DNA from: a virus
Strand: one strand, 5' to 3'
IMG/VR virus record: IMGVR_UViG_3300034284_001116
Coordinates: 1-46,057 of that record
DNA length: 46,057 bases
Both the position numbers and the translations under genes were made by a program. The notes below the pieces were generated by a model that worked only from the letters and a program-made list of their open reading frames with translations, was not told the origin of the DNA and did not search any database. Positions 1,554-24,909 of the stretch are shown here, one piece after another (positions within the stretch are counted from its first letter, which is position 1; each line of letters starts with the position of its first letter).

Positions 1554-4205
1554 TTAAAAACTAAAAAACTCTTCCAATTTAACATCCGTCTCATTTGGAT
1601 AACTCCAATTCAACACATTATAAAAGTCTAACAACTTACCTCTGAGTTCTTGTTCATACATAGCGTTTCTATCTACATATTGTTCAATGAACTCCATAAT
1701 ACGATCAGGATCAGTACCATCAGCTTTCATAGCAATACCCTCAATACCATATTGGTTTTGTTTTAGATATACCCACTTGATCTTTTGACCGTGGAAAATC
1801 TCAGGTACATCTTTGTCTAACTTCCAAGTCTTCAACAAATCATTATAAGCCAAAGCAGCTTTAGCTTGTGCTGGAGTGCCATCCATAAACTGAAATGGAT
1901 GTCTAGTCTTTGGATTGTAATCATTATCTCCATTTTGACTCTTAAATTTTACACTAGTATTCTTTGCAATCTCAATAACTGGATAAGTAGACATCTTATC
2001 CTTAAATTCAAGAATACTAGCATCGATTTGATCTTTTGGAAGTTTACGCAACATATCATCCAAGAACTTTTGCATAAACTTACGAAATCGAATTGGAAAG
2101 CTAGTACGAACTACGTCAATACCCTTTACTTCCATCTCATCACACTCAATACCAGCTTTATTAATGATAAACTGAGCATAACGTTTCTTAGCCAACCAAA
2201 AACTAGTCTTGGCAATAACTTCTTGTTTCGCATCAAAACGATGTTTCTCAATGTTGAAGTAACGTTTTGCCATTACATCATAAAACTTATTGACAAACGA
2301 TTGTACATCGCCAGTTACTTTCAAAATAGCCTCAGTCATTGCCTTTTCATCATTTAGATCGATATCAGGCATATTCTTTTTAATGATAGGTAATGCACTA
2401 GCAAAACAACTATCTGTATCTGTATAGATAACCCAATCTCCTTCTTTCTCATTCAATGAACGTTTGAAACATTCATTAATAGCCTTACCAGTAGATTTGA
2501 TAATATCTTGACCAGTTATGGTAACAGCGCTCGCATTATCCTTGTCATAAAATCTAAAGATCGGTAAACCCAATACACCATAGATTGAATTAAGTAATAC
2601 TTTTTGTACTTTTTGACGACCATCATAAAATTCATATTTTTCCCATTCTTTTAAATCCGCATGCTTTTTAGCAAGTTTACGAAGATCTTTACGTTCATCG
2701 AACCACTTTACTAGAATTTCTGGAATAACCCCCGTCTTGTCTTTCTTACACATTACACCATTACTAGCCACACTCAAATTGCTTTGGGTAACCAATTGTT
2801 TAAATTCATCATTGGTATAAATTGTAGATCCAACGTGATACTTACCAATTTTGTCTTGAGCAAACAATCTAGCATTAAATGCGTACAATCGTTGTTCAAG
2901 ATATTGAGCAAATGGAGTCTTCTTTTGAGCACCATCACTTAGATTCTCATAATCCTCACGAATTTCTTTGGTACGATCTTCTACATAAGAATTATCATAT
3001 TCGATCTTATTAATTACTGCTACTTTAGTTTCAGGCGATAAGTTAAGACTGATGATGATATTCGGATACATTGATGTAAGGTCCAAGTCAAAGACCCAAT
3101 CATAACGACCGGGAGTAGGAGCTTTAACATAAGCACCTTCAAAACCTTGTTCATTATCTTCCATTTGAGTTTCATATTCATCACGACCATCCAATGATTT
3201 ATTTTTAGCGACTTGTCCTTTACGACGTAGATACATAAGAATAGCACCTTCAATGAAACGAGAACTCATTTCATACCATTCATATGGAACGTGACCTTTG
3301 TGACAAATAGCCCTTGCCAATTCAATAAACTGTAACTTTTTTTCTAGTGCTACAATGATTTGTACGTCGTTCAAGTTATATTCAATATACTTGTTGATAT
3401 CAGCTTTGTACAAATCATCCAAACTACCTTTATAGGCAATCTTCTCCATACCCACGATCTTTTTACCAATAGCTCCAAGAGCATAACTAGCTTCTTGTTT
3501 GATATTAAGCTTCTTATAAAGAGTCATATAATCCAAATGAGTTACCCCAGCTACAATAACTTTCTTATTCCAGTCATTGATATAAGCAACTTGAATTGGA
3601 CTCAACCGTTTTGCATTGTTTGGACCAACGATATTTTTCATACGACGAAACAGATAAGGCATGTCGAAGTTATCACTGTTCCAACCAGTACTAATAGTAG
3701 GTTGAATTTCTTCCCATTTGGTAAGAAAGTGCATCAATAGACTGTCTTCATCTGTAAAACTACGTACTTCTACATTTTCTTTAACGAAGTCCTGTAGCTT
3801 ATGTTCTTTATCCAAAATGAAAGCTGTATATTTAGATGTACAACTATCATAAATAGCAATAGCTGTAATTTCTTTATCAGCTTCTTCTACGTTTGGAAAG
3901 CCACCTTCGGTACTAACTTCAATGTCAAGATACACAACACGGTGACCTTCGGATGGTTCGTCACTATCCTCGTAAGCATCAATCAAGATGCGAGTTTCTG
4001 CTGGAACATCACTTTCAAATAGACTTGGGTCTTTTGGATTAAATTTGTATACCTTTTCTAATTCGTCTCCATAAATACTACGATACATTCCACCTTCACG
4101 CTTTCGATAAGCATATGGACGATAAGGTACCGTTACATATCCTTTTTTATCATCCCACAAGTGAATAATGTTATCTTTCTTTGAAACAAATATATTTTGA
4201 TACAT
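1554..4205 (-). CDS. 43: Family B DNA polymerase (T4 gp43-like)
   Basis: Replicative polymerase with 3'-5' proofreading. At 883 residues it is close to T4 gp43 (898). Exo I YLDIEVS has acidic residues D94 and E96; Exo II GWNSDNFD lies at about 174-181; Exo III YNLND ends at D280. Polymerase motif A DLTSMYPN starts at D375, motif B KVLLNSIYG is at about 535-543, and motif C YTDTDS is at 594-599. All catalytic acidic residues are present, so it should be active. The ATG at 4205 lies exactly 6 bp after a -10-like box, suggesting a leaderless mRNA. No intein or split is present. Confidence 0.97.
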   Translation of the reverse strand: MYQNIFVSKKDNIIHLWDDKKGYVTVPYRPYAYRKREGGMYRSIYGDELEKVYKFNPKDPSLFESDVPAETRILIDAYEDSDEPSEGHRVVYLDIEVSTEGGFPNVEEADKEITAIAIYDSCTSKYTAFILDKEHKLQDFVKENVEVRSFTDEDSLLMHFLTKWEEIQPTISTGWNSDNFDMPYLFRRMKNIVGPNNAKRLSPIQVAYINDWNKKVIVAGVTHLDYMTLYKKLNIKQEASYALGAIGKKIVGMEKIAYKGSLDDLYKADINKYIEYNLNDVQIIVALEKKLQFIELARAICHKGHVPYEWYEMSSRFIEGAILMYLRRKGQVAKNKSLDGRDEYETQMEDNEQGFEGAYVKAPTPGRYDWVFDLDLTSMYPNIIISLNLSPETKVAVINKIEYDNSYVEDRTKEIREDYENLSDGAQKKTPFAQYLEQRLYAFNARLFAQDKIGKYHVGSTIYTNDEFKQLVTQSNLSVASNGVMCKKDKTGVIPEILVKWFDERKDLRKLAKKHADLKEWEKYEFYDGRQKVQKVLLNSIYGVLGLPIFRFYDKDNASAVTITGQDIIKSTGKAINECFKRSLNEKEGDWVIYTDTDSCFASALPIIKKNMPDIDLNDEKAMTEAILKVTGDVQSFVNKFYDVMAKRYFNIEKHRFDAKQEVIAKTSFWLAKKRYAQFIINKAGIECDEMEVKGIDVVRTSFPIRFRKFMQKFLDDMLRKLPKDQIDASILEFKDKMSTYPVIEIAKNTSVKFKSQNGDNDYNPKTRHPFQFMDGTPAQAKAALAYNDLLKTWKLDKDVPEIFHGQKIKWVYLKQNQYGIEGIAMKADGTDPDRIMEFIEQYVDRNAMYEQELRGKLLDFYNVLNWSYPNETDVKLEEFFSF

Positions 4206-4211
4206 ATAACC

Positions 4212-4240
4212 ACTATACCCTCAACTTAGGAAAAAGTCCA
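4212..4240 (-). promoter_or_regulatory. Sigma70-like promoter of DNA polymerase, leaderless architecture
   Basis: Minus strand: -35-like TGGACT (4235-4240), 17-bp spacer, -10 TATAGT (4212-4217) preceded by GGG. Exactly 6 bp separate the -10 from the ATG at 4205, which puts the expected +1 on the A of the start codon. The -35 is imperfect (4 of 6 bases). Confidence 0.5.
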
Positions 4241-4246
4241 GCGAAA

Positions 4247-5866
4247 TCATTTTGTTATATAATATTTATCAAGAATTACTCCGTCTAATTCCGATGAATC
4301 TAGATTTTGAAGAGCCGCTTGATAGTGAGTTAGAATTGGTTTTCCTTTAATGTTAAACGAGGTATTTATTAATATAGGCATACCACTTAGTTTTTCAAAT
4401 TCTTTCAAAAGTTCATAAACATAAGGATTTTGATTATAATTTATAGTTTGCAACCTTGAAGTTCCATCAACATGCGTAATAGACGGCAATAAATTTCTAA
4501 AGTCATTTTTTACCTTGGGACTAAATGACATATATTTGTAATTTGCATTATTACTAGTTTCAAAGTATTTATTAGCATTTTCTTCACAACAAATAGGAGC
4601 AAATGGTCTAAACCATTCTCTGAATTTAACCTTCTTATTTATTGTGTCTTTCATATTATGGTGCCTTGGATCTGCTAAAATGGTTCTATTCCCCAATGCA
4701 CGTGGACCAACTTCACTCTGACCCCGACACAAACCTATAATCTTTCCATTGTATATATCTTCTGCTACTTTTTTAATATCAGTAGATTTCCAAGATCTAT
4801 ACATTAGTATGTTTGGTAATATTTCTTCATCCAACACAGGACAACCAGAATACATAGTTTCATTTACAACCGAAGAATTTAACATCAAACACATTGCTCC
4901 ATATGATAATCCACAATCACTTGGCGCCGGTGGAATAAAAAAGTTAGTTGTAGGATATAATTTTGAGAGTCTTTCATTGAGAAGCACATTTAAAGCGCCT
5001 CCTCCCGATAAACAAACATTTTTATGAATATCTTGATTAAAATATTGTTTAAAATAATCGATAAAAAAGTTTTCAAATGCTAATTGTGTATTATATGCTA
5101 TATTAACACTGTCTATATTAGAATATTCCGTTGTTTTTTTGTTTATAATATTTCCGAGATGTTTATTTCTAAAATAAAAAGCAGAATTATGATCACCGTC
5201 AAAACCTATCTTAATAGAATTTTGAAATAGACTATAAATAGAATCATAAATATTTTTATCAAATGATCCATATGCACTTAATCCCATTAGTTTGCCGGAA
5301 TTAGCCAACATATTAACTATAGAGTCGCCGCTTTTCTTTTCTATTTCAGAAATAAAATTTCCTACATATGCATAAAATTCTGTTAATCCTGTTAGAGTAA
5401 ATGGATTTATTTTTTTCAAACCATTTTTATCTGCCTCAAATACACAGAGATTACCATCATTTCCATATCCATCAAACGAAACTATTAATGAAGAATCAAA
5501 ATTGCTTGAATAAAAAGCACTAGCAGCATGACATTCGTGATGGTTATAATACACGAAATCGGATATTTGAAAAATTGATTTATATAAAGATTTTTCTTTA
5601 TCTAATCCCTCATCAGTACCATAATATGGTCTTAATAAAGAAGCGACATCAAACTTTTCTTCAAATCCCAAATTAATAATAATATTCTTTATGTAATTTA
5701 AGATGTATACCTTTTGATCATCACTAAAAGAATCTATATAAAAGTATCTAATTCCGAATATTCTTTCCAATTCAAAGTGATAAAATTTGTTTAACTTTTC
5801 AGAATAAACGCAAATATTTGAATCGTGTCCGTTAAAATAAAACGAAATGTATTGCTTACTATTCAT
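4247..5866 (-). CDS. NodU/CmcH/TobZ-family O-carbamoyltransferase
   Basis: Family members transfer a carbamoyl group from carbamoyl phosphate, via carbamoyl-AMP, to a hydroxyl on a sugar, antibiotic or other acceptor. The 539-residue protein has the full two-domain layout. An N-terminal Kae1-like half starts with FYFNGHDSNICVY and has metal-site HHECHAA, DGYGNDG and SGGGALN. A C-terminal YrdC-like half has SEVGPRALGNRTILADPR, FREWFRPFAP and LINTSFNIKGKP. Nothing essential looks missing. It overlaps the preceding gene by 8 bp and is last of a four-gene coupled set (6466-7197, 6242-6469, 5859-6245). Likely acceptors are a sugar from the cluster at 8401-25557 or a hydroxymethyl base; the sequence cannot decide. 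Confidence 0.93.
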   Translation of the reverse strand: MNSKQYISFYFNGHDSNICVYSEKLNKFYHFELERIFGIRYFYIDSFSDDQKVYILNYIKNIIINLGFEEKFDVASLLRPYYGTDEGLDKEKSLYKSIFQISDFVYYNHHECHAASAFYSSNFDSSLIVSFDGYGNDGNLCVFEADKNGLKKINPFTLTGLTEFYAYVGNFISEIEKKSGDSIVNMLANSGKLMGLSAYGSFDKNIYDSIYSLFQNSIKIGFDGDHNSAFYFRNKHLGNIINKKTTEYSNIDSVNIAYNTQLAFENFFIDYFKQYFNQDIHKNVCLSGGGALNVLLNERLSKLYPTTNFFIPPAPSDCGLSYGAMCLMLNSSVVNETMYSGCPVLDEEILPNILMYRSWKSTDIKKVAEDIYNGKIIGLCRGQSEVGPRALGNRTILADPRHHNMKDTINKKVKFREWFRPFAPICCEENANKYFETSNNANYKYMSFSPKVKNDFRNLLPSITHVDGTSRLQTINYNQNPYVYELLKEFEKLSGMPILINTSFNIKGKPILTHYQAALQNLDSSELDGVILDKYYITK

Positions 5867-6245
5867 AGATTTCTATATAAACTTTTTTGTCAGCTGTAAT
5901 GTGCGGATTCCAATGAGACAGATGATAAAACTGAGAATTAAGTATAATAAAATACATACTCATTATAGTCATTTTTTCGACTTTTTTGTCAACGTCATTG
6001 CATATTTTATACGTAACTTTACAAAAATCACTTATTCCGTTTGATTTTTCACTACCATATATACGCAATGAACTATCATCACTAAATGTAACTAGTGAAA
6101 TTTTTGAATCATCTGAAATTTTATTTGATACACATTGTTTGTTTTCATAATTCACAACCCAAGATAACTTTTTATATAATTTATTTGAATTAATTACATT
6201 ATACAAATGTGTTGATTTTTCCAAAAAGTCTTCGTTTATTTTCAT
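5859..6245 (-). CDS. Hypothetical protein coupled to the carbamoyltransferase
   Basis: A 128-residue soluble protein, not recognised. It overlaps the upstream gene by 4 bp and the carbamoyltransferase gene by 8 bp, so translation is probably coupled. The last third (FYHLSHWNPHITADKKVYIEIYE) is rich in aromatic and histidine residues, but no known metal-binding pattern can be assigned. AT-rich codon use matches the carbamoyltransferase gene and contrasts with the polymerase gene, suggesting the pair arrived together. Confidence 0.7.
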   Translation of the reverse strand: MKINEDFLEKSTHLYNVINSNKLYKKLSWVVNYENKQCVSNKISDDSKISLVTFSDDSSLRIYGSEKSNGISDFCKVTYKICNDVDKKVEKMTIMSMYFIILNSQFYHLSHWNPHITADKKVYIEIYE

Positions 6246-6469
6246 TGTTTTAATTTATTAACAAGTCCAGTAAAAACCGAATGATGTTCTTCTTTTACAT
6301 GTTGAGCGCATTGTAATATTCTATCCATCAATCTTTTATGTTTAATAGCAACAAATAAACACGGTTCAAGTTCTTCGCCTGATAATACAGGTGGAGTAAT
6401 TTTATTAATACAAAACCACAACATGGCCAATTCGTCTTCTGTAAGAGACTGTAAATGATCTAATTTCAT
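6242..6469 (-). CDS. Small hypothetical protein (75 aa)
   Basis: A 75-residue protein with a largely helical look (LQSLTEDELAMLWFCINKI at the N-terminus, HVKEEHHSVFTGLVNKLKQ at the C-terminus), not recognised. Four-base overlaps (ATGA) with genes on both sides place it in the translationally coupled set that ends with the carbamoyltransferase. No signal peptide or transmembrane segment. Confidence 0.7.
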   Translation of the reverse strand: MKLDHLQSLTEDELAMLWFCINKITPPVLSGEELEPCLFVAIKHKRLMDRILQCAQHVKEEHHSVFTGLVNKLKQ

Positions 6470-7197
6470 TGTAGTTTAATTCCAAAGATGTTTTGTCCGT
6501 AATTTACAAATAGTGTGTTATCCAACTTAGATTTTAATGTGGACAATTCTTTAGAGTGTACTTCTTTTTCTTCATCCTCTACTTCTTTAACACTAAAACT
6601 ATTACCCAACTTAGTAACACTAGCTTCTCTAGCACTCATAACAATCTGTGGAGTAACTACCAAATAGTCGCCTGATTTTAATTCTTTCTTCTTCTTAGAC
6701 TTATTATCCAATACGGTTACATTACCACTCACCACATATACGTGAGTAAACTTTTCATTAGATTTAACAAAGAATGTGGATTGACTAAATGTTACACTAC
6801 ATAACGTAGTGAGTAATGTATTTAGATTGGTACTTTCACTAACACAATATAGTTCTCCGTTGAGAGTAAAGTTAAACATTGCGTCCTTTACTTTAACCAC
6901 TTCAGGTAATTTAAAATCATTTACATATTCAGTACTTGTTTGATTAAAGTATGTGGAAGTGTTTTCTTTCTGAAACACTGCAATACGATATGGTATTATA
7001 TATGATACACTAGAGTTGGTTGTGTTTATATTAAGACTATTAGTAATAGTATATGTTTTACCAATAGTAGTAGGTAATACATTTAGTTTGTTGTTAATTA
7101 CCTCAGTTAATTCTACGTCATTATTCTTATCATATAGATAAAGATCATTAGCGTGTAGATTAAGTGCGGTCAATAGAATAGTTAGAAATTTCTTCAT
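6466..7197 (-). CDS. Putative exported protein with signal peptide
   Basis: From the ATG at 7197 the protein begins MKKFLTILLTALNLHA-ND, a short Sec signal peptide with a plausible cleavage site after HA. A TTG 6 bp upstream (7203) would also be in frame but is less likely. The mature part is rich in beta-branched residues and contains VYVVSGNVTVLDN...LKSGDYLVV, which resembles the turn-rich core of FecR or cupin-like beta-sandwiches; this is a weak analogy. It is first in the operon leading to the carbamoyltransferase, divergent from the Cas4-like nuclease. Exact function unknown. Confidence 0.7.
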   Translation of the reverse strand: MKKFLTILLTALNLHANDLYLYDKNNDVELTEVINNKLNVLPTTIGKTYTITNSLNINTTNSSVSYIIPYRIAVFQKENTSTYFNQTSTEYVNDFKLPEVVKVKDAMFNFTLNGELYCVSESTNLNTLLTTLCSVTFSQSTFFVKSNEKFTHVYVVSGNVTVLDNKSKKKKELKSGDYLVVTPQIVMSAREASVTKLGNSFSVKEVEDEEKEVHSKELSTLKSKLDNTLFVNYGQNIFGIKLQ

Positions 7198-7220
7198 ATA
7201 CAATATATAGTTTTTATAGA

Positions 7221-7248
7221 TTGACTTTTATTAATTATACATTAGGAT
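7221..7248 (+). promoter_or_regulatory. Sigma70-like promoter of the Cas4-like nuclease, leaderless architecture
   Basis: Plus strand: -35 TTGACT (7221-7226), 16-bp spacer, -10 TAGGAT (7243-7248), then exactly 6 bp to the ATG at 7255. The same bases also read as a Shine-Dalgarno-like AGGA (7244-7247), so either reading is possible. It lies in the 57-bp gap between divergent genes. Confidence 0.45.
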
Positions 7249-11942: not shown

Positions 11943-12590
11943 ATGTTTTTATCTTATTTAGTAACATGTCACAATGAAACTGATAGTTTAGAAAAACTAT
12001 TAAACAAGTTAATCTCTAACATAAAGAACAGCCATGAAATTGTTCTGCTTGACGATTATTCGGATAATCCAAAAACTTTGGAGATTATACAAAAATATAA
12101 AGAAAAGATAAATTTATATCAACATAAATTAGCTAAAAATTATGGAGCGCATAAAAACTATGGTATAGAATTATGTAAAGGTGAATGGATCTTTCAACTA
12201 GATGCTGATGAAGTTCCAACTGATGGATTATTGGAAAACATTGACTTGATTATTGAATCAAATAGTAATAATGAAGTATTATGGTTGCCACGATTAAATT
12301 ATTTCATTGGAGTAACCGAACAAGACATCAATACGTGGGGATGGAAAATGTACGACGGTATGATTAATTTTCCAGACTACCAATCAAGAATATACAGAAA
12401 CAATCCACACATTAGATACGAACGAAGACTCCACGAAAAAGTTGAAGGATTCAAAAGTTATGTCTTTATACCTCCACAAAAAGATTATGCTATTATTCAT
12501 GAGAAAACAATAGAAAAACAAAGACAGACTAATGTAAATTACAATAAACTATTTACGGAAGATGAAAATAAAGGATACGCAGTTAAATGA
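11943..12590 (+). CDS. GT2-family glycosyltransferase
   Basis: A 215-residue GT-A enzyme. SYLVTCHNETDSLEKLL at the N-terminus and EIVLLDDYSDNPKT form the nucleotide-binding site. WIFQLDADEVPT supplies the DxD metal motif. RLHEKVEGF lies in the acceptor-side region, as in the SunS/WaaE-like LPS glycosyltransferases (RxHE motif). It starts 1 bp after the preceding stop (TAATATG) and overlaps the next gene by 4 bp. No membrane segment, so probably a cytosolic transferase. Confidence 0.88.
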   Translation: MFLSYLVTCHNETDSLEKLLNKLISNIKNSHEIVLLDDYSDNPKTLEIIQKYKEKINLYQHKLAKNYGAHKNYGIELCKGEWIFQLDADEVPTDGLLENIDLIIESNSNNEVLWLPRLNYFIGVTEQDINTWGWKMYDGMINFPDYQSRIYRNNPHIRYERRLHEKVEGFKSYVFIPPQKDYAIIHEKTIEKQRQTNVNYNKLFTEDENKGYAVK

Positions 12591-13222
12591 AACATATAAA
12601 TTATATTGATCTTGGTTTGTGGAAACGTGCCGATGAATTGGAATACATGGTTAAATATGTGTTACCTAATTTTAAAGATATTACATATACGGCATATGGA
12701 GTAGAAGCGTGCCCGGAATATGCGGAATTGATCAAAAATAAATATATAAATAATAAAAACGTTATTATTCATAATAAAGCTATATCCAACTTTGTTGGAA
12801 AAACTGATTTATTTTTTGCTACGAACAACGATGGTCTGGGCAATTCAATTTTTAAAACAAAAAATAACGTTGATATAAGGTCAAAAGTTGAAGTTGAAAC
12901 AACTACATTTTCACATTGGTTAAACGAAAACAAAATAGATCTATATAATAGTATTAATATACTAAAAGTTAATATAGAGGGTGCAGAATTATTTCTCTGG
13001 GATGATATTAAAAAAAATAATTTAAGAGATTATTTTCATATATTGTGTGGACATCCGTCACACGATATATATAAAGTTTCCGAGTTGGCCAATCAAATAG
13101 ATTATTATAAGTCGCTCTTAGTAGAATTAAATGTCGATTTACTGTTATTCTGTCACACAGATGGACGGTCTTCTATTAACAATATGACATCCGAATTATC
13201 AAACATTTTGAAACAGCAATGA
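12587..13222 (+). CDS. FkbM-family SAM-dependent methyltransferase
   Basis: A 211-residue protein with the FkbM pattern: YGVEACPEYAELIKNKY (SAM-binding acidic strand end), VIIHNKAISNFVGKTDLFF, VETTTFSHWLNEN and ILKVNIEGAELFLWDDI. Members O-methylate sugars and polyketide hydroxyls, so methyl-capping of a glycan is the likely role here. The N-terminal glycine loop is degenerate (INYIDLGLWKRAD). Very AT-rich with many AAA and ATA codons compared with the genes at 8401-11941. ATGA overlaps on both sides. Confidence 0.8.
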   Translation: MKHINYIDLGLWKRADELEYMVKYVLPNFKDITYTAYGVEACPEYAELIKNKYINNKNVIIHNKAISNFVGKTDLFFATNNDGLGNSIFKTKNNVDIRSKVEVETTTFSHWLNENKIDLYNSINILKVNIEGAELFLWDDIKKNNLRDYFHILCGHPSHDIYKVSELANQIDYYKSLLVELNVDLLLFCHTDGRSSINNMTSELSNILKQQ

Positions 13223-13788
13223 ACGAAATAGAACATATATTATCATTGGTACCTACAAAACTGGAATATAAATCCACAACTTCCAAACAGTTTAAATTGG
13301 ATGTGTATGAATATTTTAATAAACCCGAGTTTAAAACATTGAATTGTCTGGAAATAGGTTGTGCAAAAGGTCATACCACTTTAATATTGAGTAAGTTGTT
13401 TAATAAAGTATACGGAGTCAATGAAGATTCGTGTGATATTGCGTCTGAATTTTGCAAATCTAATGGGAGTCTAAATGCGGAATTTTTTGTACAAGATGTA
13501 TATAGATTTGGCTTTCCTAATGTCGAAGCGGATATAATAATGATCGATGCAATTCATACATACGAACATGTATACACCGATATTAAAAATTCATTAAAAT
13601 TGAAATCTAAAAATAAGAAATATTTTATTTTTGATGACATGGGACTGTTCCCCGAGGTTAATAAAGTAGTAAAAGACATGTGTGATCAAAATGTTCTCCG
13701 GTTTATAAAAGATATTGGCGTTAGCCCTGACGGTCAGTTTCATAAGCCTTTGAATAGATACGAAGGGGCTATTTGCGTAGAAATTTAA
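13219..13788 (+). CDS. Class I SAM-dependent methyltransferase
   Basis: A 189-residue Rossmann methyltransferase. Motif I is CLEIGCAKGHTTLILSKLF, motif II VYGVNEDS, and ADIIMIDAIHTYEHVYTDI resembles the Methyltransf_24 O-methyltransferase group, where Asp and His residues at this place bind a metal. KYFIFDDMG follows as the next strand. It overlaps the FkbM gene by 4 bp, suggesting that the two act on the same glycan. Substrate unknown. Confidence 0.8.
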   Translation: MNEIEHILSLVPTKLEYKSTTSKQFKLDVYEYFNKPEFKTLNCLEIGCAKGHTTLILSKLFNKVYGVNEDSCDIASEFCKSNGSLNAEFFVQDVYRFGFPNVEADIIMIDAIHTYEHVYTDIKNSLKLKSKNKKYFIFDDMGLFPEVNKVVKDMCDQNVLRFIKDIGVSPDGQFHKPLNRYEGAICVEI

Positions 13789-13792
13789 TAAT

Positions 13793-14218
13793 ATGAAATA
13801 TATCACCAACATAGATACATTATCAGCTTTGTTTGATAGATTGATAACAGAAAACATCAAACTTTATTTCTTTAATAAGGATAATCTTGTAGAAAAAGTA
13901 AATCATCAAAATATCGTAATCGCTGAAATTAAAAATAGAATCAGAGAATTACTACGTGATACATATGATAAGAAACAATATGATTATCTTTCTGAAAAAA
14001 GAACATTTAATGAAAATGTAATTGTAGAATCCTTAGAAGAACTTATCATTAATGATATCAACATAGGCGAATCTGATAGAGAAAGATTAAAACAAGTTCA
14101 AAGCGACAATCCATCTATAGAAAAATTTTTAATCAATGAAAAAAGATTAAGAAAAGCTAATGAAGGTAGATCTCGTAATAAAAATGAAATAGACGAACAA
14201 TATAAAAAAATATTATGA
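13793..14218 (+). CDS. Hypothetical helical protein
   Basis: A 141-residue, highly charged, mostly helical protein, not recognised. Stretches such as NIVIAEIKNRIRELLRDTYDKK and a basic C-terminus (KRLRKANEGRSRNKNEIDEQYKK) suggest a coiled coil and possible nucleic acid or protein binding. It sits inside the sugar operon 4 bp after a methyltransferase and overlaps the epimerase gene by 4 bp, but nothing in it looks enzymatic. Confidence 0.65.
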   Translation: MKYITNIDTLSALFDRLITENIKLYFFNKDNLVEKVNHQNIVIAEIKNRIRELLRDTYDKKQYDYLSEKRTFNENVIVESLEELIINDINIGESDRERLKQVQSDNPSIEKFLINEKRLRKANEGRSRNKNEIDEQYKKIL

Positions 14219-15207
14219 ATGTGTTAATTACAGGAGTAGCTGGTTTGCTTGGGTCTAATTTAGCCGATTTTCTTATTAAAAAAGATATCAACGTTGTCGG
14301 TATTGACGATCTAAGCGGCGGATATATAGAAAACGTGAATGATAAAGTTAAGTTCAACAAATTAAATTTAATAACCGACGTAGATGAACTTAAAAATTTA
14401 TTCTCTAATTATAAATTCGATTATGTTTATCATTTCGCCGCATATGCAGCGGAAGGTTTAAGTCCTTTTATTAGAAATTATAATTATAATAACAATCTAG
14501 TGTCCACTGCTAATATAGTCAACTGTTGCATAAATAACAATGTTAAAAGATTAGTGTTTACATCTACAATGGCAGTATATGGAGAAAATAAAACTCCATT
14601 TGACGAATCTTATATTCCTAATCCAGTTGATCCATATGGAGTTGCAAAATACGCATGTGAAATGGATATTAGAGTCGCTGGAGAACAACATGGTTTAGAT
14701 TGGTGTATTATTAGACCACACAATGTATATGGGAAAAATCAAAACATCTGGGATAAATATAGAAATGTTCTTGGTATTTGGATGAATTTACATTTAAATA
14801 ATAAACCGTTATCAATATATGGAGATGGAGAACAAACCAGAGCTTTTTCTTATATAAATGACAGTATAGAGCCACTGTGGAATGCGGCAATTTTTCCAGA
14901 AGCTTCAAAACAAATTATCAATCTAGGCGGAATTTACGAAACATCTATTAATTCAGCGTGTGATACTTTAATTAAAGTGATGGGAGGCGGAACTAAAATT
15001 TATCTTGAGAAGAGACATGAAGTTAAACACGCGTATTCAACTTATCAAAAATCTATTGATATTTTAAAATTCAAACATAAAACGAATTTAGAAGAAGGAT
15101 TGATAGATATGTGGAGTTGGGCAATAAAACAACCGAAAAGATCTCAGTTTATTTGGGATAAGTATGAGGTTGAAAAAGGAATTTACAATTATTGGAAAAC
15201 AAATTAA
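14215..15207 (+). CDS. NAD-dependent nucleotide-sugar epimerase/dehydratase (extended SDR)
   Basis: A 330-residue extended SDR. The NAD loop is VLITGVAGLLGSNLADFL (GxxGxxG), IDDLSGG closes the dinucleotide site, HFAAYAAEGLSP and TSTMAVYGE follow, and the catalytic pair is Y-GVA-K in DPYGVAKYACEMD. RPHNVYGKNQNIWDKY matches the substrate region of GalE-like enzymes. It probably interconverts UDP- or GDP-sugars to supply the neighbouring transferases. Overlaps the upstream gene by 4 bp. Confidence 0.9.
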   Translation: MNVLITGVAGLLGSNLADFLIKKDINVVGIDDLSGGYIENVNDKVKFNKLNLITDVDELKNLFSNYKFDYVYHFAAYAAEGLSPFIRNYNYNNNLVSTANIVNCCINNNVKRLVFTSTMAVYGENKTPFDESYIPNPVDPYGVAKYACEMDIRVAGEQHGLDWCIIRPHNVYGKNQNIWDKYRNVLGIWMNLHLNNKPLSIYGDGEQTRAFSYINDSIEPLWNAAIFPEASKQIINLGGIYETSINSACDTLIKVMGGGTKIYLEKRHEVKHAYSTYQKSIDILKFKHKTNLEEGLIDMWSWAIKQPKRSQFIWDKYEVEKGIYNYWKTN

Positions 15208-15209
15208 AA

Positions 15210-16160
15210 ATGAATAAAAAAATTGTTATAGTACCTGTATTCTGTGAATCTCATTTAATTAAATTGCAAATAGATAATATATTCGAAACGATTGATCCGG
15301 ATATATTGGTTTATAATGAAGGAATGTTTCCACATGGTCCAGAAGGATGCACTGACATGTCGGGATTCAATTCAAAGTATACTTTAAACGGAGAAGGAAA
15401 AAGAGGATTTGATTTTCCAGAGTTACAAGAAATAATATTTGAAGCTCAGAAAAAATATAAAGATAAGAGAATCATTTTAAACGAAATGATTTATGACCCA
15501 AGTGTAAAATCTGCAACGAAACACTATGCAGCAGCATGTACTAATTTTAAAGCTTTAAATATTAACATTGAAGAAGGCGATTATTTATTTCCATATGAAG
15601 GAGATGTTTTTCATTTAGAATCCACTAAAAATGACATTCAGAATTATATGGCACAGTTACAGCCAGATCAAGGATTTAAAAGTATATGGGTTGATTTTGT
15701 GCAAAATCAATATTATGCTGAATTATGTACATTAAAACCGTTCTTTAAAAATCAAGAAGGCAGAACCAGAAAGATCTGCGTTAGATATGGAACGATGGAT
15801 TATTATAAATCAATTCTTCATAGTTTTGAATCACAAAAATACCCAAGTTTATTTCCAACCGATTTAATTACTTATCACTATTGTTGGTTTAGAAAAGACA
15901 AATATAAACAGCTAAGATACGATCAATTAAATAGACCTGATTATTATTGGAAATTTTTTGAGGCTGGTTTACAAGAGATTGATTCATTGAAATATGCAAA
16001 AATTTGTATGCGCCCCGATAAAGAAGGAACATATAGATACACACATGCTATAAATCTGCCACATCCTAATGCTATTAAAGAACATCAGAATTATATAAAA
16101 CCTCATGTAGACATCGACAAAATCATTGAAAGGGGTTTAATTGCAAAAGACGATATATGA
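15210..16160 (+). CDS. Putative glycosyltransferase-like protein, family uncertain
   Basis: A 316-residue protein from the ATG at 15210; an in-frame TTG at 15192 would overlap the epimerase. It opens with KIVIVPVFCESHLIKLQIDN, like a GT-A start, and has DYLFPYEGDVFHLE, which could hold the metal-binding acidic residues. TYHYCWFRKDKYKQLRYDQL is a distinctive aromatic-basic stretch. No standard family could be assigned. It overlaps the next GT2 gene by 4 bp, so a sugar-transfer role is inferred mainly from context. Confidence 0.6.
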   Translation: MNKKIVIVPVFCESHLIKLQIDNIFETIDPDILVYNEGMFPHGPEGCTDMSGFNSKYTLNGEGKRGFDFPELQEIIFEAQKKYKDKRIILNEMIYDPSVKSATKHYAAACTNFKALNINIEEGDYLFPYEGDVFHLESTKNDIQNYMAQLQPDQGFKSIWVDFVQNQYYAELCTLKPFFKNQEGRTRKICVRYGTMDYYKSILHSFESQKYPSLFPTDLITYHYCWFRKDKYKQLRYDQLNRPDYYWKFFEAGLQEIDSLKYAKICMRPDKEGTYRYTHAINLPHPNAIKEHQNYIKPHVDIDKIIERGLIAKDDI

Positions 16161-16825
16161 AAAAAATATTTGTTATAACCACACACTGTTCAAACGAATA
16201 TTGTGAATATGGAAACTATTATTTATATAATTGCCTGGATAGTTTACGTGAAATAAAACCAGACAAGATCATAATAGTGGATAATCAGTCAACTATAAAA
16301 CCTGATTTGAACAAGTTCAAATATTTGAATATAGACTATATTTACGTACAAAATCAGAAAGAAAGAGGATTAACAGGCGCCTGGAATATCGGAATACATG
16401 CAGCTGCACAATATGGCCCGGCATTAATATGTAATACAAATAATGACGTTGAATTTGATCTTAGTTATATGAATTTATATAATCATATAGTACAAGATAA
16501 AAATTCATCTACTACGATTTATGGTGCCAAAACAAACAATCCTGGTTGGCAAACAGCACAGTACGTTTTAGATCGGGGAGCATACATTTTATCGGGAAAA
16601 AAACCAAACGTATTAAATGGATTTTGTTTATTCTTTACAAATGACTTTTATCATAAATATCAAGAAAACGGATTGTTGTTTTACAATGAAAAAGAGTATC
16701 CGTGGGGAGGACAAGAAGAAATAATGTCACGTTGGGTAGAAACAAAAAATGTATGTATAAAAGTATTAAATAACTGTTTTGTGTATCACAAAAAAGAAGC
16801 TAGTTGGAGAAATGTATTAAAATGA
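16157..16825 (+). CDS. GT2-like glycosyltransferase
   Basis: A 222-residue GT-A enzyme. FVITTHCSNEYCEYGNYYLYN and DKIIIVDNQST form the nucleotide site, GLTGAWNIGIHAA is the helix typical of rhamnosyl-type GT2 enzymes, and LICNTNNDVEF holds the acidic metal site. WGGQEEIMSRWVE corresponds to the ED/acceptor region. ATGA overlaps on both sides tie it to its neighbours. Specificity unknown. Confidence 0.8.
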   Translation: MKKIFVITTHCSNEYCEYGNYYLYNCLDSLREIKPDKIIIVDNQSTIKPDLNKFKYLNIDYIYVQNQKERGLTGAWNIGIHAAAQYGPALICNTNNDVEFDLSYMNLYNHIVQDKNSSTTIYGAKTNNPGWQTAQYVLDRGAYILSGKKPNVLNGFCLFFTNDFYHKYQENGLLFYNEKEYPWGGQEEIMSRWVETKNVCIKVLNNCFVYHKKEASWRNVLK

Positions 16826-17808
16826 AAACTCAATATAAATACGCAATTGGCATACATGTGATGTTCTATGAAATCGAAATGTTTAAAGATTACATCGATG
16901 CACTGATAAATCTTTTATCAACAATAGACAACAAAGAAAATATATATTTAGATTTTTCTTTTAATACATCTCAATTCTTTGAAAAAATTGATACAACAAA
17001 GACGACAAAGGATGATTTAGTCGATAGATTTGAAAACGAATTATCTAGAATAAATGAATTGCCTAACTTACATTATAAAATCATAGATAATGATTTTGAA
17101 TTCTATACACAAACAAACTATCGTAGAGAATTCAATACAAAATATTGTGAGAAAGTTGATTATTTAATATGGGGAGAAACAGATAGTTTAATTCCAAAAG
17201 AAGCAATAATCGGATTAGAAACTCTGACTCCTGTTATAAGATCACAAGGAATATACAGATTTATAGCATGTTTTGCGGATCGAAAAATGTGGGATAATAG
17301 TTGGGACGTAACGGTTCATCCTAAATTCCTAAATCATGTATATGATGACAAAGATGTTGATAACATTAATCAAGCAAAGTCACTTATGACCATAGATCAA
17401 ATGAATACTATCAATTCAGAGATCAAAGAACTTGACATACAAACGATAAATTATCCAAAAATAGATGGCTCTTGTTTGGTATTAAGTAGTGATTTAATTA
17501 AAAATGGCGTTAATATACCGCCTTGCTTTATTCATAATGACGATGAAAGTTTATCAATGATGGCACAAAAAATACTAGGGGACAAATACATACAAATTAT
17601 ATTCAAAAATATTTTAAAGGTACACGTTAGAAGACATCCAAATAAACGTATGTATATTGCGAATGAAAATAATCCAAGGGGATTTTGTGGAAAAGAAAAA
17701 GGAGATTGGTGGAATATATTCAAAGAGATGTCACAACACAATTTAAATAGTTTGTTCAAAAATACAGGAAACTTTTATACTTACGAAGATTTTAAAAAAC
17801 GTTTATGA
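16822..17808 (+). CDS. Putative GT-A glycosyltransferase
   Basis: A 328-residue protein starting at the ATG at 16822, which overlaps the previous stop as ATGA; the longer frame from 16804 is not needed. YAIGIHVMFYEIEMFKDYIDAL resembles a GT-A N-terminus and DYLIWGETDSLIPKE carries an acidic pair at the place of a DxD motif. Late histidine and arginine residues in LKVHVRRHPNKRMY could bind phosphate. Assignment is by layout and neighbours; no strong family signature was recognised. Confidence 0.6.
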   Translation: MKTQYKYAIGIHVMFYEIEMFKDYIDALINLLSTIDNKENIYLDFSFNTSQFFEKIDTTKTTKDDLVDRFENELSRINELPNLHYKIIDNDFEFYTQTNYRREFNTKYCEKVDYLIWGETDSLIPKEAIIGLETLTPVIRSQGIYRFIACFADRKMWDNSWDVTVHPKFLNHVYDDKDVDNINQAKSLMTIDQMNTINSEIKELDIQTINYPKIDGSCLVLSSDLIKNGVNIPPCFIHNDDESLSMMAQKILGDKYIQIIFKNILKVHVRRHPNKRMYIANENNPRGFCGKEKGDWWNIFKEMSQHNLNSLFKNTGNFYTYEDFKKRL

Positions 17809-18761
17809 AAATTTGTTTTGTTAGTCAAAATAGTCACATTGGTAAACTACCTAGAGATTTTGTAAATTGTCGTACTGAATTTGCTTGGCAAATTGCAATT
17901 AATGCCAATCATTATCCAATAGACTACGTTTTAAGTAAATCGTCAATTGGTATACCACGACATGATTTGGTTATAGTAATATTGCCAAAAAAGTTAGAAA
18001 ACTTTGATACTGTCCGATTGTTAGATGTGGTCAAATCTATTGGTAAAAAAGTAACAGTAATGCAAGAAGGTCCGGCTTGGTATTATCAAGATTATAATTA
18101 TACAAATCAAGTTAATTATATCAATTTCCTAAGTTCCATGGATTTTCTGTTAACCCACAATAAAAGTGACATTCCATACTTTAAAGGTATATTTAAAAAA
18201 CCTACATTTAATCTTCAATCGTTAATGATAGAAGATACAGTTAAAAATGTACTACATGAAAATAATGGCATGCCTATTATAGGTGGCAACTTTTGCAGTT
18301 GGTATGGCGGTGTAGACAGTTACTTTGTATCACAAAACTTTAATAAACCTATCTTTATTCCAAGTATGGGGCGCAAGATAGAAAATGAAGATCAATTTCC
18401 AAGTTTACATCACCTACCATATATGATGTGGAATGAGTGGATTAAAACACTCGCCAATTTTAATGTGGGTATACACTTAATGCGCACACATGCGGCAGGT
18501 ACATTCGCTCTCAATTGTGCATATCTAGGTATACCGTGTATAGGATATAAAGGTTTAGATACACAAGAAACTCTACATCCCGATCTGAGTATTAATATAG
18601 GAGATATAGACACAGCAAACAAACTAGCAATAAAACTCCGAGATGACAAAGAGTTTTATAATTACTGTTCAGAAATCGCCAAAGATAATTATAAGTTATT
18701 ATACACAGAAGAAATCTGGTTACAAAAGTGGAATATAATTTATGAACAAATTAAAGACTAA
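17805..18761 (+). CDS. Putative GT-B-like glycosyltransferase
   Basis: A 318-residue protein. FVSQNSHIGKLPRDFVNCRTEFAWQIA at the start and GIHLMRTHAAGTFALNCAYLGIPCIGYKGLDTQETLHPDL late in the chain resemble the two Rossmann halves of GT-B enzymes, the latter standing where the donor-binding loop should be. No E-x7-E motif is present, so the family is uncertain. It overlaps the previous gene by 4 bp and the dehydrogenase by 20 bp. Confidence 0.55.
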   Translation: MKICFVSQNSHIGKLPRDFVNCRTEFAWQIAINANHYPIDYVLSKSSIGIPRHDLVIVILPKKLENFDTVRLLDVVKSIGKKVTVMQEGPAWYYQDYNYTNQVNYINFLSSMDFLLTHNKSDIPYFKGIFKKPTFNLQSLMIEDTVKNVLHENNGMPIIGGNFCSWYGGVDSYFVSQNFNKPIFIPSMGRKIENEDQFPSLHHLPYMMWNEWIKTLANFNVGIHLMRTHAAGTFALNCAYLGIPCIGYKGLDTQETLHPDLSINIGDIDTANKLAIKLRDDKEFYNYCSEIAKDNYKLLYTEEIWLQKWNIIYEQIKD

Positions 18762-19545
18762 AGTAGGCATCGTTGGTTATGGTTATGTAGGCAAAGCATT
18801 TCATAATTTCTTTAAAAGTCATTATGAAGTATTGATATACGATCCGTCGTATATAATGTCATGTACAAAAGAAGAAATCAATAAATGTGATTTAGGCGTA
18901 ATCTGTGTACCTACGCCTGAAAATGCAGACGGTAGTTGTAATACTAGTATTGTGGAAGAAACTGTTAGTTGGCTAACTGCTCCATTGATACTTCTTAAAA
19001 GTACGGTAGAAATTGGTACAACCGATAGGTTAATTAAAACATACAACAAAGAAATTGTATTTAGTCCAGAATTTGCCGGAGAGTCAAAGTATTGGACTCC
19101 TGATGGATTTACAACTGATGTTAAACAGACTCCATTCTTTATTTTTGGCGGTAAAAAAGAATTGTGTTATAAACTGATTGAAATTTATACTCCAATTACA
19201 GGTCCAAGTAAAACATATAGAGTAACCGAACCAATTACCGCTGAAGTTACAAAATATGTTACCAATACTCAGTTAGCTATGAAAGTAGCATATTGTAACG
19301 AAATATACGATCTGTGTGAAAATTTAGGTACCAGTTACTATGAAGTAAGAGATTTATGGTTATTGGATCCACGTACAACTAAATCTCATACAGCTGTATT
19401 TACGGGAGAACGTGGATTTGGCGGAAAATGTTTTCCAAAAGATACCAAAGCAATGGTTAAATTAGGTGAAAAGGTTGGTGTGGATCTTTCAATACTAAAG
19501 ACAGTACTCGACAGCAATGAAAAAATGTTGAAGAAAAATGAATAA
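18742..19545 (+). CDS. UDP-glucose/GDP-mannose dehydrogenase-like protein lacking the C-terminal domain
   Basis: The family oxidises a nucleotide-sugar to its uronic acid with two NAD+. This 267-residue copy has the NAD domain (VGIVGYGYVGKAF, CDLGVICVPTP, LLKSTVEIGTT), the central dimer domain with the conserved lysine and NE pair (EVTKYVTN, KVAYCNEI), and the catalytic cysteine in FGGKCFPKDTKAM. It then stops. The UDP-binding third domain of full enzymes (usually about 390-450 residues) is absent, and no other ORF nearby supplies it. The start at 18742 overlaps the previous gene by 20 bp. Confidence 0.85.
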   Translation: MNKLKTKVGIVGYGYVGKAFHNFFKSHYEVLIYDPSYIMSCTKEEINKCDLGVICVPTPENADGSCNTSIVEETVSWLTAPLILLKSTVEIGTTDRLIKTYNKEIVFSPEFAGESKYWTPDGFTTDVKQTPFFIFGGKKELCYKLIEIYTPITGPSKTYRVTEPITAEVTKYVTNTQLAMKVAYCNEIYDLCENLGTSYYEVRDLWLLDPRTTKSHTAVFTGERGFGGKCFPKDTKAMVKLGEKVGVDLSILKTVLDSNEKMLKKNE

Positions 19546-20302
19546 AAATTGCATAGTAATGGTTGCTATTCAGGACGAAGCTTCTAAATATGATCATCAA
19601 AAATACTTTGAGGTTTCAAAACAATGTTGGCAGTCTTATTGTAAAAAGCATAACATAGATTTTATAGTAGTTGATAAAAAATTACCGAACGTAAAATTTT
19701 GTGTTTGGCACAAAGAATTTGTTTTTGATTTTATAGGAGATAAATATGAAAAAATTGCATTAGTAGATTTTGATACAATGGTTAATTGGAACGCTCCTAA
19801 TTTTTTCGAATTATATGATGACGAATTCTGCGGAGTTTTGGAAAATGAAAGTTTATTCTGGATTCAGAATAGTTTAAATGCGTTCAAAAACAGTTTTGAT
19901 GAATTAAAGAATGTAGATATAACTTTATCGGAATATATAAACGGAGGCATTTTATTCTTTAACAAATCTCACAAAAATTTCTTCGAAAAATTAAAGGAAT
20001 TTTATATAACAAATAAATCTACATTTGATAACTGGAACATTCCTAACACAGGAAAAGAACAAACTATATTGAATCTATATCTTAAAAAAGAAGGAATTAA
20101 AAAGAAATATTTGGATTTTAGGTTTAATACGATGCGATTGATTAAGAATGATTGGTTACATCATAACTGGCAGATAAATGAAGATAAAACTCCATTTTTT
20201 ATTAAATACTCATATATTTGGCACTTCACGGGATGTTCTATAGAAGAACGTACAAATCTAATGACAAGTATATGGCAACAAACCAAACATCTATATGCAT
20301 AA
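19538..20302 (+). CDS. GT8-like GT-A glycosyltransferase, tandem copy 1
   Basis: A 254-residue enzyme. The DxD motif is in KIALVDFDTMVNWNAPNFFEL, and EYINGGILFFNKSHKNFFEKLKEFY and GKEQTILNLYLKKE match the acceptor and conserved acidic segments of glycogenin-like transferases. A late WHFTGCS supplies the usual histidine. It resembles the next gene product along its whole length, so the two arose by duplication. Overlaps of 8 bp on both sides. Confidence 0.8.
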   Translation: MNKNCIVMVAIQDEASKYDHQKYFEVSKQCWQSYCKKHNIDFIVVDKKLPNVKFCVWHKEFVFDFIGDKYEKIALVDFDTMVNWNAPNFFELYDDEFCGVLENESLFWIQNSLNAFKNSFDELKNVDITLSEYINGGILFFNKSHKNFFEKLKEFYITNKSTFDNWNIPNTGKEQTILNLYLKKEGIKKKYLDFRFNTMRLIKNDWLHHNWQINEDKTPFFIKYSYIWHFTGCSIEERTNLMTSIWQQTKHLYA

Positions 20303-21044
20303 TGTAGTATATATAATCAACATAGAAACAGATAGAAAACCGGGTAGAACAACTCCATATAAGTATGGAATCGAATCATGGAGAAGGTGGTGCCAAAAAA
20401 ATAATGCTAAATTAGTTGTTCTTGATCAAGCCATTCTTCCATATGAAGATCTTAGACCAAATTGGCACAAAGTGTTTATATTCGATTTATTGGAACAGTC
20501 AAACATTGAAGTTAACAAAATAATTATAGTTGATGCTGATACAATTGTACATCCAGACTCTCCTAATTTTTTTGAAATGGACGATGGTAAATTCTGTGTA
20601 GTTCCTAATATAGGATCATACGATTGGATTTTTAGAAGCGTGGAGAACTATAAAAAACACATATTCAACGATTATAATTTTGATGTTACTAAATATTTTA
20701 ACTCTGGATTTATGATTTTGAATAAAAATCACAAAGGGTTTTTCGAAAAAGTTAAACGATTCTACTTTTCAAATAAAGACAATCTGGTAAAGATGCAAGA
20801 AACATTTTTTACAGGTACAGATCAACCCGTATTAAATTTCATGTGTCAAATCGAAAATATAAACATGAAGTTTCTACCATATGAATTTAATATGCAAGAC
20901 CTTCATAGAAGAGAAGGACTAACATCGGATATGCCCTATATTAACTTAGGTTATATTTATCATTTCAACGCAATTCCCAATAACAAAGATAACAACCAAA
21001 CAATTTATTGGATGGAGAAAACGTTTAAATCTTTGTATGAGTAA
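20295..21044 (+). CDS. GT8-like GT-A glycosyltransferase, tandem copy 2
   Basis: A 249-residue paralogue of the preceding gene product. Shared blocks are the DxD segment (KIIIVDADTIVHPDSPNFFEM), YFNSGFMILNKNHKGFFEKVKRFY, GTDQPVLNFMC and YIYHFNA. Divergence is large outside these blocks, so the two probably differ in donor or acceptor. It overlaps both neighbours by 8 bp and was retained in the operon, which argues for function. Confidence 0.8.
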   Translation: MHNVVYIINIETDRKPGRTTPYKYGIESWRRWCQKNNAKLVVLDQAILPYEDLRPNWHKVFIFDLLEQSNIEVNKIIIVDADTIVHPDSPNFFEMDDGKFCVVPNIGSYDWIFRSVENYKKHIFNDYNFDVTKYFNSGFMILNKNHKGFFEKVKRFYFSNKDNLVKMQETFFTGTDQPVLNFMCQIENINMKFLPYEFNMQDLHRREGLTSDMPYINLGYIYHFNAIPNNKDNNQTIYWMEKTFKSLYE

Positions 21045-22011
21045 TTATCTTAAAAACATAGACGGTAACCCAGAATTTGGATGTGAATTAGCATGCACTC
21101 TTCCATATACATACTATTTACATAAACATGGAAAACTAGGATCTATCAATACCGTCGTTGGAATGAAACCGTTTTATTTTTTTACAGATAAAGTATATGA
21201 AGTATATAAAAATAGATCGGTTGATAATTTGAAATCTCTTAAAGATATACCCAATAAATGGATACATCATAATGCACTAGCCATTACTGGAAAAGATTAT
21301 AATGAACTTAATCATGAAGAACAATTGAAAGTAAACGGAGTATTAGATTATAGAGAATGGATTGCTCCTCCTATTAAATCTTATTATTCTACTAATAACG
21401 ATATAGATCTAAACAAAAAGTTTATTGTTATTTGTAATAGATTTAATATGGAACATGGAAGATTTCCATTTGGATACTTTGACATAAATTTATTACAAGA
21501 TACATTTGACTATTTAAGATCTAAAGGATATGTTGTAATTTATAAACGACCAGACAACAAAGAGTTTCCATTAGATTTGAATGAACAAATGGGAATCGAT
21601 AAAGATATAATAAATAAATATGGAATCAAAGCATTAGACTCAAATGGTAATGTAATCGACGATAAACAATTATGTAAATTATATGATGATGTATATCTAT
21701 TTGAAGACATTCACGCTTTATATCCTCATCTTAGTTATAATGAATTTCAATTAAAATTATTTTCTAAATCAGATGGATTTATATCTATGGGCGGGGGCAA
21801 TACGATTCTGAGTTGTTATTTTGAAGTACCTGTTATTTCTTACATAACCACTAGTAAAGAATTAAGAGATAATTACTTTAATGAAAATTCTTATTATAGA
21901 AAACTATCAAATTGTGACGTATATCCTATAAGAGATCCTGAAAAAGAAATTGAAAAAAGAGGTTTTAGAAATTATAATCAATTAGTTGACACAATACAAA
22001 AGGTATTCTAA
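21037..22011 (+). CDS. Unassigned protein of the sugar cluster, possibly GT-B-like
   Basis: A 324-residue protein with no firm family. Features that recall a GT-B enzyme are the mid-chain FIVICNRFNMEHGRFPFGYFD, LRSKGYVVIYKRPDN (start of a second Rossmann half) and FSKSDGFISMGGGNTILSCYFEVPVISYIT, which looks like a donor-binding glycine loop. It overlaps its neighbours by 8 bp and 1 bp (TAATG). A glycosyl- or fucosyltransferase role is possible but unproven. Confidence 0.5.
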   Translation: MSNYLKNIDGNPEFGCELACTLPYTYYLHKHGKLGSINTVVGMKPFYFFTDKVYEVYKNRSVDNLKSLKDIPNKWIHHNALAITGKDYNELNHEEQLKVNGVLDYREWIAPPIKSYYSTNNDIDLNKKFIVICNRFNMEHGRFPFGYFDINLLQDTFDYLRSKGYVVIYKRPDNKEFPLDLNEQMGIDKDIINKYGIKALDSNGNVIDDKQLCKLYDDVYLFEDIHALYPHLSYNEFQLKLFSKSDGFISMGGGNTILSCYFEVPVISYITTSKELRDNYFNENSYYRKLSNCDVYPIRDPEKEIEKRGFRNYNQLVDTIQKVF

Positions 22012-22940
22012 TGAAAGATAAAAAAATATTTATAACAGGAGGCGCCGGTTTTCTAGGAAAATATATAGTTAAACGTTATTACAATGACAATGAAATCACT
22101 ATATTCAGTAGAGATGAGGCCAAACATTATTATCTCAAAAAACAGTTTCCAAAAATTAACTGCATCATAGGAGATGTGCGCAATTATGATTTGTTAAAAA
22201 GATCCAGTAAAAATCATAACATCGGAATATTTGCGGCTAGTTTAAAACAAATTGAAGCTGTCGATCAAAATGTTGAAGAAGGTCTAAACGTAATTGTACA
22301 CGGCGCAATTAATAGTAGAAGAATATCCGAAGAGAACAATTTTGAAGCATCTTGTTTCGTTTCGTCAGACAAAAGTAGATCAGCAACTACATTGTATGGA
22401 TCTATGAAATTTGTAGCTGGAGAAAGTTTCATAGTAAACGCGGATAAAAGTCACATTAGATTGAGTACAGCAATATATGGAAACGTTTTAAACTCAACTG
22501 GAAGTATTATTCCTTTGATATGGAATGCTATACATAACAATTATAGTTTGAAGTTGTATTCCAAAGAAATGACAAGATTCATGATTACAGTTGATCAAGC
22601 TATAGATCTAATAGAAGAAGGACTAAAAGTAAGTGGATATAATATAATTCCTAATGTAAACAGTTTTAAAATTGAAGATCTATTTGAACTTTATAAAGAA
22701 CTATTTGGATTACAGTATACAATAGATGTTCCTAGAATATCTGAAAAGATACACGAAATTATGGTTTCCAATGAGGAACAATCTAGAATAAAGCAAGTAG
22801 ATGATTACTACTATATGCATTATAAGAACACATTTAATGAAGTTTCATTTGTTAATAATGAATATTCTAGTAAAGACGTATGTGCTACCCGTGAAGAATT
22901 GAACACGATGTTACAAAAATTTAATTATTTCAAATCATGA
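22011..22940 (+). CDS. UDP-sugar 4,6-dehydratase (PseB/CapE/FnlA-like SDR)
   Basis: A 309-residue SDR of the polysaccharide-biosynthesis type. FITGGAGFLGKYIVKRY binds the cofactor, and GDVRNYDLL, AASLKQIEA, SSDKSRSATTLYGSMKFVAGE (catalytic Y-x3-K) and MTRFMITVDQA match PseB/CapE/FnlA enzymes. These remove water from UDP-GlcNAc or a related sugar to give a 4-keto-6-deoxy intermediate, some with C5 epimerisation. The next gene encodes a matching reductase, overlapping by 4 bp. The likely product is a 6-deoxy amino sugar; substrate inferred from the family. Confidence 0.88.
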   Translation: MKDKKIFITGGAGFLGKYIVKRYYNDNEITIFSRDEAKHYYLKKQFPKINCIIGDVRNYDLLKRSSKNHNIGIFAASLKQIEAVDQNVEEGLNVIVHGAINSRRISEENNFEASCFVSSDKSRSATTLYGSMKFVAGESFIVNADKSHIRLSTAIYGNVLNSTGSIIPLIWNAIHNNYSLKLYSKEMTRFMITVDQAIDLIEEGLKVSGYNIIPNVNSFKIEDLFELYKELFGLQYTIDVPRISEKIHEIMVSNEEQSRIKQVDDYYYMHYKNTFNEVSFVNNEYSSKDVCATREELNTMLQKFNYFKS

Positions 22941-24908: not shown

Positions 24909-24909
24909 T

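Follow-up and report, generated by a model that had tools for sequence, protein, structure and literature searches.

Carbamoyltransferases of the NodU/CmcH family are well known in phages, and solved relatives of the enzyme described here include TobZ, GdmN and other carbamoyltransferases. A phage enzyme of the family has been proven to carbamoylate 5-hydroxymethylcytosine (5hmC) (MetaGPA, eLife 2021, PMC8670742). That gene is found together with genes of the thymidylate synthase family, PRA-PH and dCMP deaminase; on unmodified contigs NodU adjoins glycosyltransferases, and W408, G421 and R423 were named as discriminating residues (PMC8670742). Our literature search found no paper on phage NodU in glycan contexts. 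T4-like phages gather homing endonucleases near core replication genes (PMC2988022, PMC2993671).

The NodU gene analyzed here lies next to a DNA polymerase gene in the window, which is the whole stretch of viral DNA that was analyzed (46,057 nucleotides from an IMG/VR record). A T4-like phage gained a cassette of two genes, s128 and NodU, at the junction between the gene s75 and the polymerase gene (s75|pol), and with it an enzyme that probably carbamoylates sugars.

Gene organization and promoter-like elements

NodU is the last of four ORFs in a row on the minus strand. The features of the region are:

7261-7234, minus strand: promoter-like element TTGACA-16-TATAAT, upstream of cup243, 12/12 match
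7197-6466, minus strand: cup243, 243 aa from ATG
6469-6242, minus strand: s75, 75 aa
6245-5859, minus strand: s128, 128 aa
5866-4247, minus strand: NodU, 539 aa, NodU/CmcH-family O-carbamoyltransferase
4206..4246, minus strand: insertion scar downstream of NodU, about 40 nt, holding what remains of the original s75 3' end together with the leader of the polymerase gene
1554..4205, minus strand: DNA polymerase, family B, the next gene after the insertion site, 99% identical to that of the relative L005
8401..25557, plus strand: glycan gene cluster, from Pfam matches

The positions of the four ORFs agree with the overlaps of 4, 4 and 8 bp on which the original prediction of a coupled operon was built; an alternative in-frame TTG at 7203 would extend cup243 to 245 aa. 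These overlaps are the usual gene packing for this genome. The window has 42 consecutive same-strand gene pairs; the overlap is 4 bp long in 11 of them and 8 bp in four, and 12 of these 15 pairs are outside the row.

The element upstream of cup243 is a perfect -35/-10 promoter-like match and is kept in eight relatives (L005, L006, L007, L009, L014, L016, L020 and L197), while the frequency of other promoter-like matches in the window was not above that in shuffled sequence. Co-transcription of the row is supported because this conserved element precedes cup243, and it likely drives all four genes. A further block, GTCAA-n-TATAAAAACTATATATT, was observed upstream of cup243 at 7197-7235 (minus strand) and is kept in most relatives besides the -35/-10 element; it may serve as an additional promoter or operator that is specific to the phage. 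Elsewhere in the window (30219-31403, minus strand) the phage encodes a 394-aa protein with a DruA domain (PF14236; Druantia defence component).

The carbamoyltransferase

Based on its domains and motifs, NodU is classed as an intact member of the O-carbamoyltransferase family, with catalysis predicted. Both Pfam domains scored far over their cut-offs, PF16861 at 7.8e-62 (208.2 bits, cut-off 27) and PF02543 at 6e-23 (82.3 bits, cut-off 24), and the protein matched phrog_1601 'Nol-like carbamoyltransferase' at 9e-119. Family motifs (HHxxHAA, GPRALG[NQ]R and NTSFN) were present as HHECHAA (residues 109-115), GPRALGNR (387-394) and NTSFN (501-505), together with D132-G133 and D317. The earlier description of a full-length enzyme with its family motifs was thus confirmed.

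Scanning IMG/VR with the single NodU sequence returned no relatives, and an alignment-based scan returned hundreds. Phage carbamoyltransferases are very common, with at least 561 viral stretches in the latter scan, and few of them have a known acceptor; the window NodU is an additional case of this known phage family. NodU forms a clade with the enzymes of two other viral loci, L111 and L191 (support 100/100), and is 47% identical to both.

Insertion of s128 and NodU

Relatives were gathered via the adjacent DNA polymerase, giving 17 IMG/VR loci at 43-99% identity. The nearest isolate by this protein is Microcystis phage Mel-JY01 (42%). Fourteen of the 17 loci, and L197 in addition, possess cup243 and s75 and have neither NodU nor s128, which makes 15 of 15 relatives; cup243 is 53-94% identical across them. 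In 12 of the 15, s75 lies directly before the polymerase gene, and in the other three (L007, L020 and L197) the two are separated by a homing endonuclease gene. PF16861 was absent from the 17 relative records, from that of L197 and from the 190-kb Mel-JY01, and was present in the window's own record only. Conversely, cup243, s75 and s128 were found beside NodU in none of 160 other NodU loci.

Because the relatives keep cup243-s75 without NodU and s128, and other NodU loci do without cup243 and s75, s128 and NodU are a two-gene insertion, and the row is a chimera of this insert with two native genes. On their distribution, cup243 and s75 are taken to be old genes of the phage group, outside the NodU cassette. 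The proposal that the four genes form a functional unit, with the small genes accompanying NodU in other genomes, was therefore not borne out. The window and L005 provide a clean with/without pair, namely near-identical genomes (polymerase 99%) with NodU present in one and absent from the other at a defined junction.

The junction itself carries a scar. In relatives, s75 ends a few nt ahead of the start codon of the polymerase gene. About 40 nt separate the NodU stop from the polymerase start in the window, and 34 of 39 positions here are identical to the L005 sequence that covers the end of s75 and the leader (alignment score 53; no score above 22 in 1000 shuffles). Because of this match to the s75 tail and polymerase leader, the insertion point was placed inside the s75 3' end. 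The full tail of s75 is found on one side of the insert and the polymerase has its own leader on the other, so the last ~13 codons of s75 either arrived with the cassette or were duplicated. Since the insert is within the s75 3' end, s128 and NodU come under the promoter-like element of cup243.

ORF, Pfam and PHROGs checks revealed s128 and NodU alone in the insert, and no endonuclease, recombinase or transposase gene. The G+C contents of s128 (0.25) and NodU (0.29) are low relative to the polymerase gene (0.34) and would fit acquisition, but this argument is weak because the variable glycan genes, which are native, have a similarly low value (0.30).

Homing endonucleases and other junction cargo

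Several relatives carry cargo of their own in this region, including:

L007:7220-7966, L020:9280-10026 and L197:8045-8788, s75|pol junction: homing endonuclease with NUMOD3 motif; Vsr-like match below cut-off
L005:8873-9769, between cup243 and s75: glycosyltransferase-like gene, Glyco_trans_1_2 (PF13524), 298 aa

The endonuclease has 248 aa. In L007 and L020 its gene runs with the 3' end into the polymerase start, and the first polymerase codons there are unlike those of the other relatives, which suggests that the polymerase start was co-converted with the endonuclease. In L005, the relative closest to the window, the PF13524 gene overlaps each of its neighbours by 4 bp and carries the direct repeat ATGAAATTAG (10 bp) at each end. 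Other junction cargo comprises a nucleotidyltransferase gene (L009), a Sulfotransfer_2 match (L011), DNA methylase, HAD/nucleotidyltransferase and methyltransferase genes (L017), and two unassigned ORFs which may be glycosyltransferase-like (L006). These data suggest that, in this phage group, genes for glycan decoration tend to land around the polymerase gene, beside homing endonuclease sites.

The polymerase gene of L017 is also split by a mini-intein-like insert (4932-5450, HNS junction), downstream of which there are duplicated fragments of the polymerase C-terminus and a chimeric fragment of the clamp.

The cassette might alternatively be recent, non-adaptive cargo of homing-endonuclease-driven recombination, with no selected role. 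The s75|pol junction is a homing endonuclease site, and of the 16 genomes that have it just one contains the cassette; both facts speak for such an origin. This explanation is nevertheless improbable, given a 539-aa frame that is open and retains all family motifs, the conserved promoter-like element ahead of it, and the fact that glycan-type genes have been gained more than once around here.

The small genes

No family was assigned to cup243, s75 or s128 in Pfam or PHROGs, and phage-genome searches with the three yielded nothing usable. The sole Pfam hint for cup243 was a cupin match that, at 22.7 bits, fell short of the cut-off (23.5); with its N-terminal hydrophobic stretch ending in ANDL, this protein is plausibly an exported cupin/FecR-like protein. 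The small genes had been proposed as partners of NodU which select its acceptor or location. For s75 and cup243 such a role is unlikely, judging from their occurrence without NodU in every relative.

The case of s128 is different. It had no match in Pfam, PHROGs, phage genomes or IMG/VR and was absent from all relatives at this site. A small ORF is also located directly upstream of NodU in L111 and L191, again with an 8-bp overlap, and the two ORFs are 45% identical to each other; an IMG/VR scan for them revealed no further copy. One explanation is that s128 and these ORFs serve the NodU enzymes of this clade as dedicated partners, presenting or selecting the acceptor. All three clade members have an ORF of 110-137 aa in the same position with the same overlap, the L111 and L191 ORFs are homologous, and s128 was inserted together with NodU. 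Yet s128 showed no significant similarity to these ORFs in pairwise shuffles, hhalign or a C-terminally anchored profile alignment (6/150 shuffles), by which homology was not established, and an 8-bp overlap is frequent upstream of NodU in general. AlphaFold models (pLDDT 36 for s128 and 54 for the L191/L111 ORF) were too poor for fold comparison. A partner role for s128 is accordingly possible but doubtful, and it is somewhat less likely still that s128 and the L111/L191 ORFs constitute one fast-evolving family of accessory subunits of the phage NodU clade. If they did, the pair would be a two-gene glycan-carbamoylation module moving between phages. An accessory subunit of this kind is not known to us from any NodU system. 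The small ORF upstream of NodU in another locus, L174, looks unrelated by eye.

Predicted acceptor

The sequences used as DNA-type references were the enzymes of Acinetobacter phage Effie and Bacteroides phage BF486P2, which are likely isolate counterparts of the MetaGPA enzyme and not that enzyme itself. Effie has PRA-PH, PF00303 (thymidylate synthase / dCMP hydroxymethylase) and dCMP deaminase genes beside NodU, and in BF486P2 NodU is near two annotated dCMP hydroxymethyltransferases. Their enzymes form a clade apart from the window NodU (100/100). The residues at the W408/G421/R423 positions are L/G/R in the window, V/G/T in Effie and I/C/T in BF486P2. Thr at the TobZ R423 position was found in two of 124 sequences, only those of Effie and BF486P2; the window NodU retains the canonical Arg.

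Within the broad window-side group of NodU-bearing viral records, a sugar epimerase was present in 24 of 47 and thymidylate synthase in four of 47, while Effie and BF486P2 both have thymidylate synthase and no epimerase. Neighbours of NodU in L111 and L191 encode GT9 heptosyltransferases, FkbM and other methyltransferases, an epimerase and a cytidylyltransferase, and the NodU genes of the cyanophages Bellamy and SynMITS9220M01 are located in heptose/LPS-type clusters. The glycan cluster of the window, 17 kb on the strand opposite to NodU, starts 1.2 kb beyond cup243 and contains genes for glycosyltransferases, FkbM and other methyltransferases, epimerases, a nucleotide-sugar dehydrogenase and an RmlD-like protein. 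The acceptor sugar probably comes from this cluster, whose first five genes (two GTs, dUTPase, GT454 and GT2) are conserved in relatives. The dUTPase gene thus sits among glycosyltransferase genes, and the distal part of the cluster (12587-25557) is highly variable among relatives.

A sugar is the better candidate acceptor because clade, the residue at R423, the absence of PF00303, the epimerase counts, the glycan neighbours and the cluster in the window all point to it; carbamoylation of a sugar, judged from these neighbours, is likely and is favoured over that of a base, which is unlikely. Of the two acceptors originally proposed, a sugar or a hypermodified base, only the former is in keeping with the context. 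The proven activity of a phage NodU-family enzyme on 5hmC (PMC8670742), and the position of the window gene next to a DNA polymerase gene, would be consistent with carbamoylation of a hydroxymethylated base in phage DNA. We consider this highly improbable for the window enzyme, which stands outside the Effie/BF486P2 clade with Arg in place of Thr. PF00303 was also absent from the window, the 17 relative records and the complete 190-kb Mel-JY01, although the window is a 46-kb fragment and a hydroxymethylase gene may lie elsewhere in the genome.

Proposed history and function

The preferred reading, with a sugar as acceptor, would proceed as follows. A T4-like phage related to the freshwater cyanophage Mel-JY01 acquired the s128 and NodU cassette, which entered the s75 3' end immediately ahead of the DNA polymerase gene, where related phages have a homing endonuclease gene. 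Duplication of the ~40-nt s75 tail would have left s75 whole and the polymerase with its leader; since both were kept, the new genes would have joined the existing cup243-s75 transcript. NodU would use carbamoyl phosphate and ATP to form carbamoyl adenylate, and would move the carbamoyl group to a sugar hydroxyl of a glycan or nucleotide-sugar made with the help of the adjacent glycan cluster. Such carbamoylation may alter the surface glycan of the host or of the virion. The enzyme family, the insertion, the scar and the glycan context are direct findings; that NodU is active, has a sugar as acceptor and benefits the phage is inferred.

Comparison with known systems

The window NodU has PF02543, PF16861 and the metal- and nucleotide-site motifs in common with TobZ, CmcH and GdmN, which act on antibiotics, whereas its own acceptor is presumably a sugar. 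The cyanophage Nol-like carbamoyltransferases (phrog_1601; Synechococcus phage Bellamy gp223 and SynMITS9220M01) resemble it in family, length and glycan-cluster context at 37% identity; their genes lie within the glycan cluster, while that of the window lies in a row of replication genes with a small gene upstream. The free-standing homing endonuclease sites of T4-like phages (PMC2988022, PMC2993671) are comparable to the s75|pol junction of L007, L020 and L197 with its NUMOD3 endonuclease, but in the window the cargo is s128 and NodU and no endonuclease is left. Lastly, the 5hmC carbamoyltransferase (PMC8670742) and the Effie and BF486P2 enzymes are like the window NodU in family, phage origin and predicted chemistry, from which it differs by its separate clade, the absence of a hydroxymethylase neighbour and a residue other than Thr at R423. 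Sugar-type and DNA-type enzymes could be told apart by clade, neighbour and one residue.
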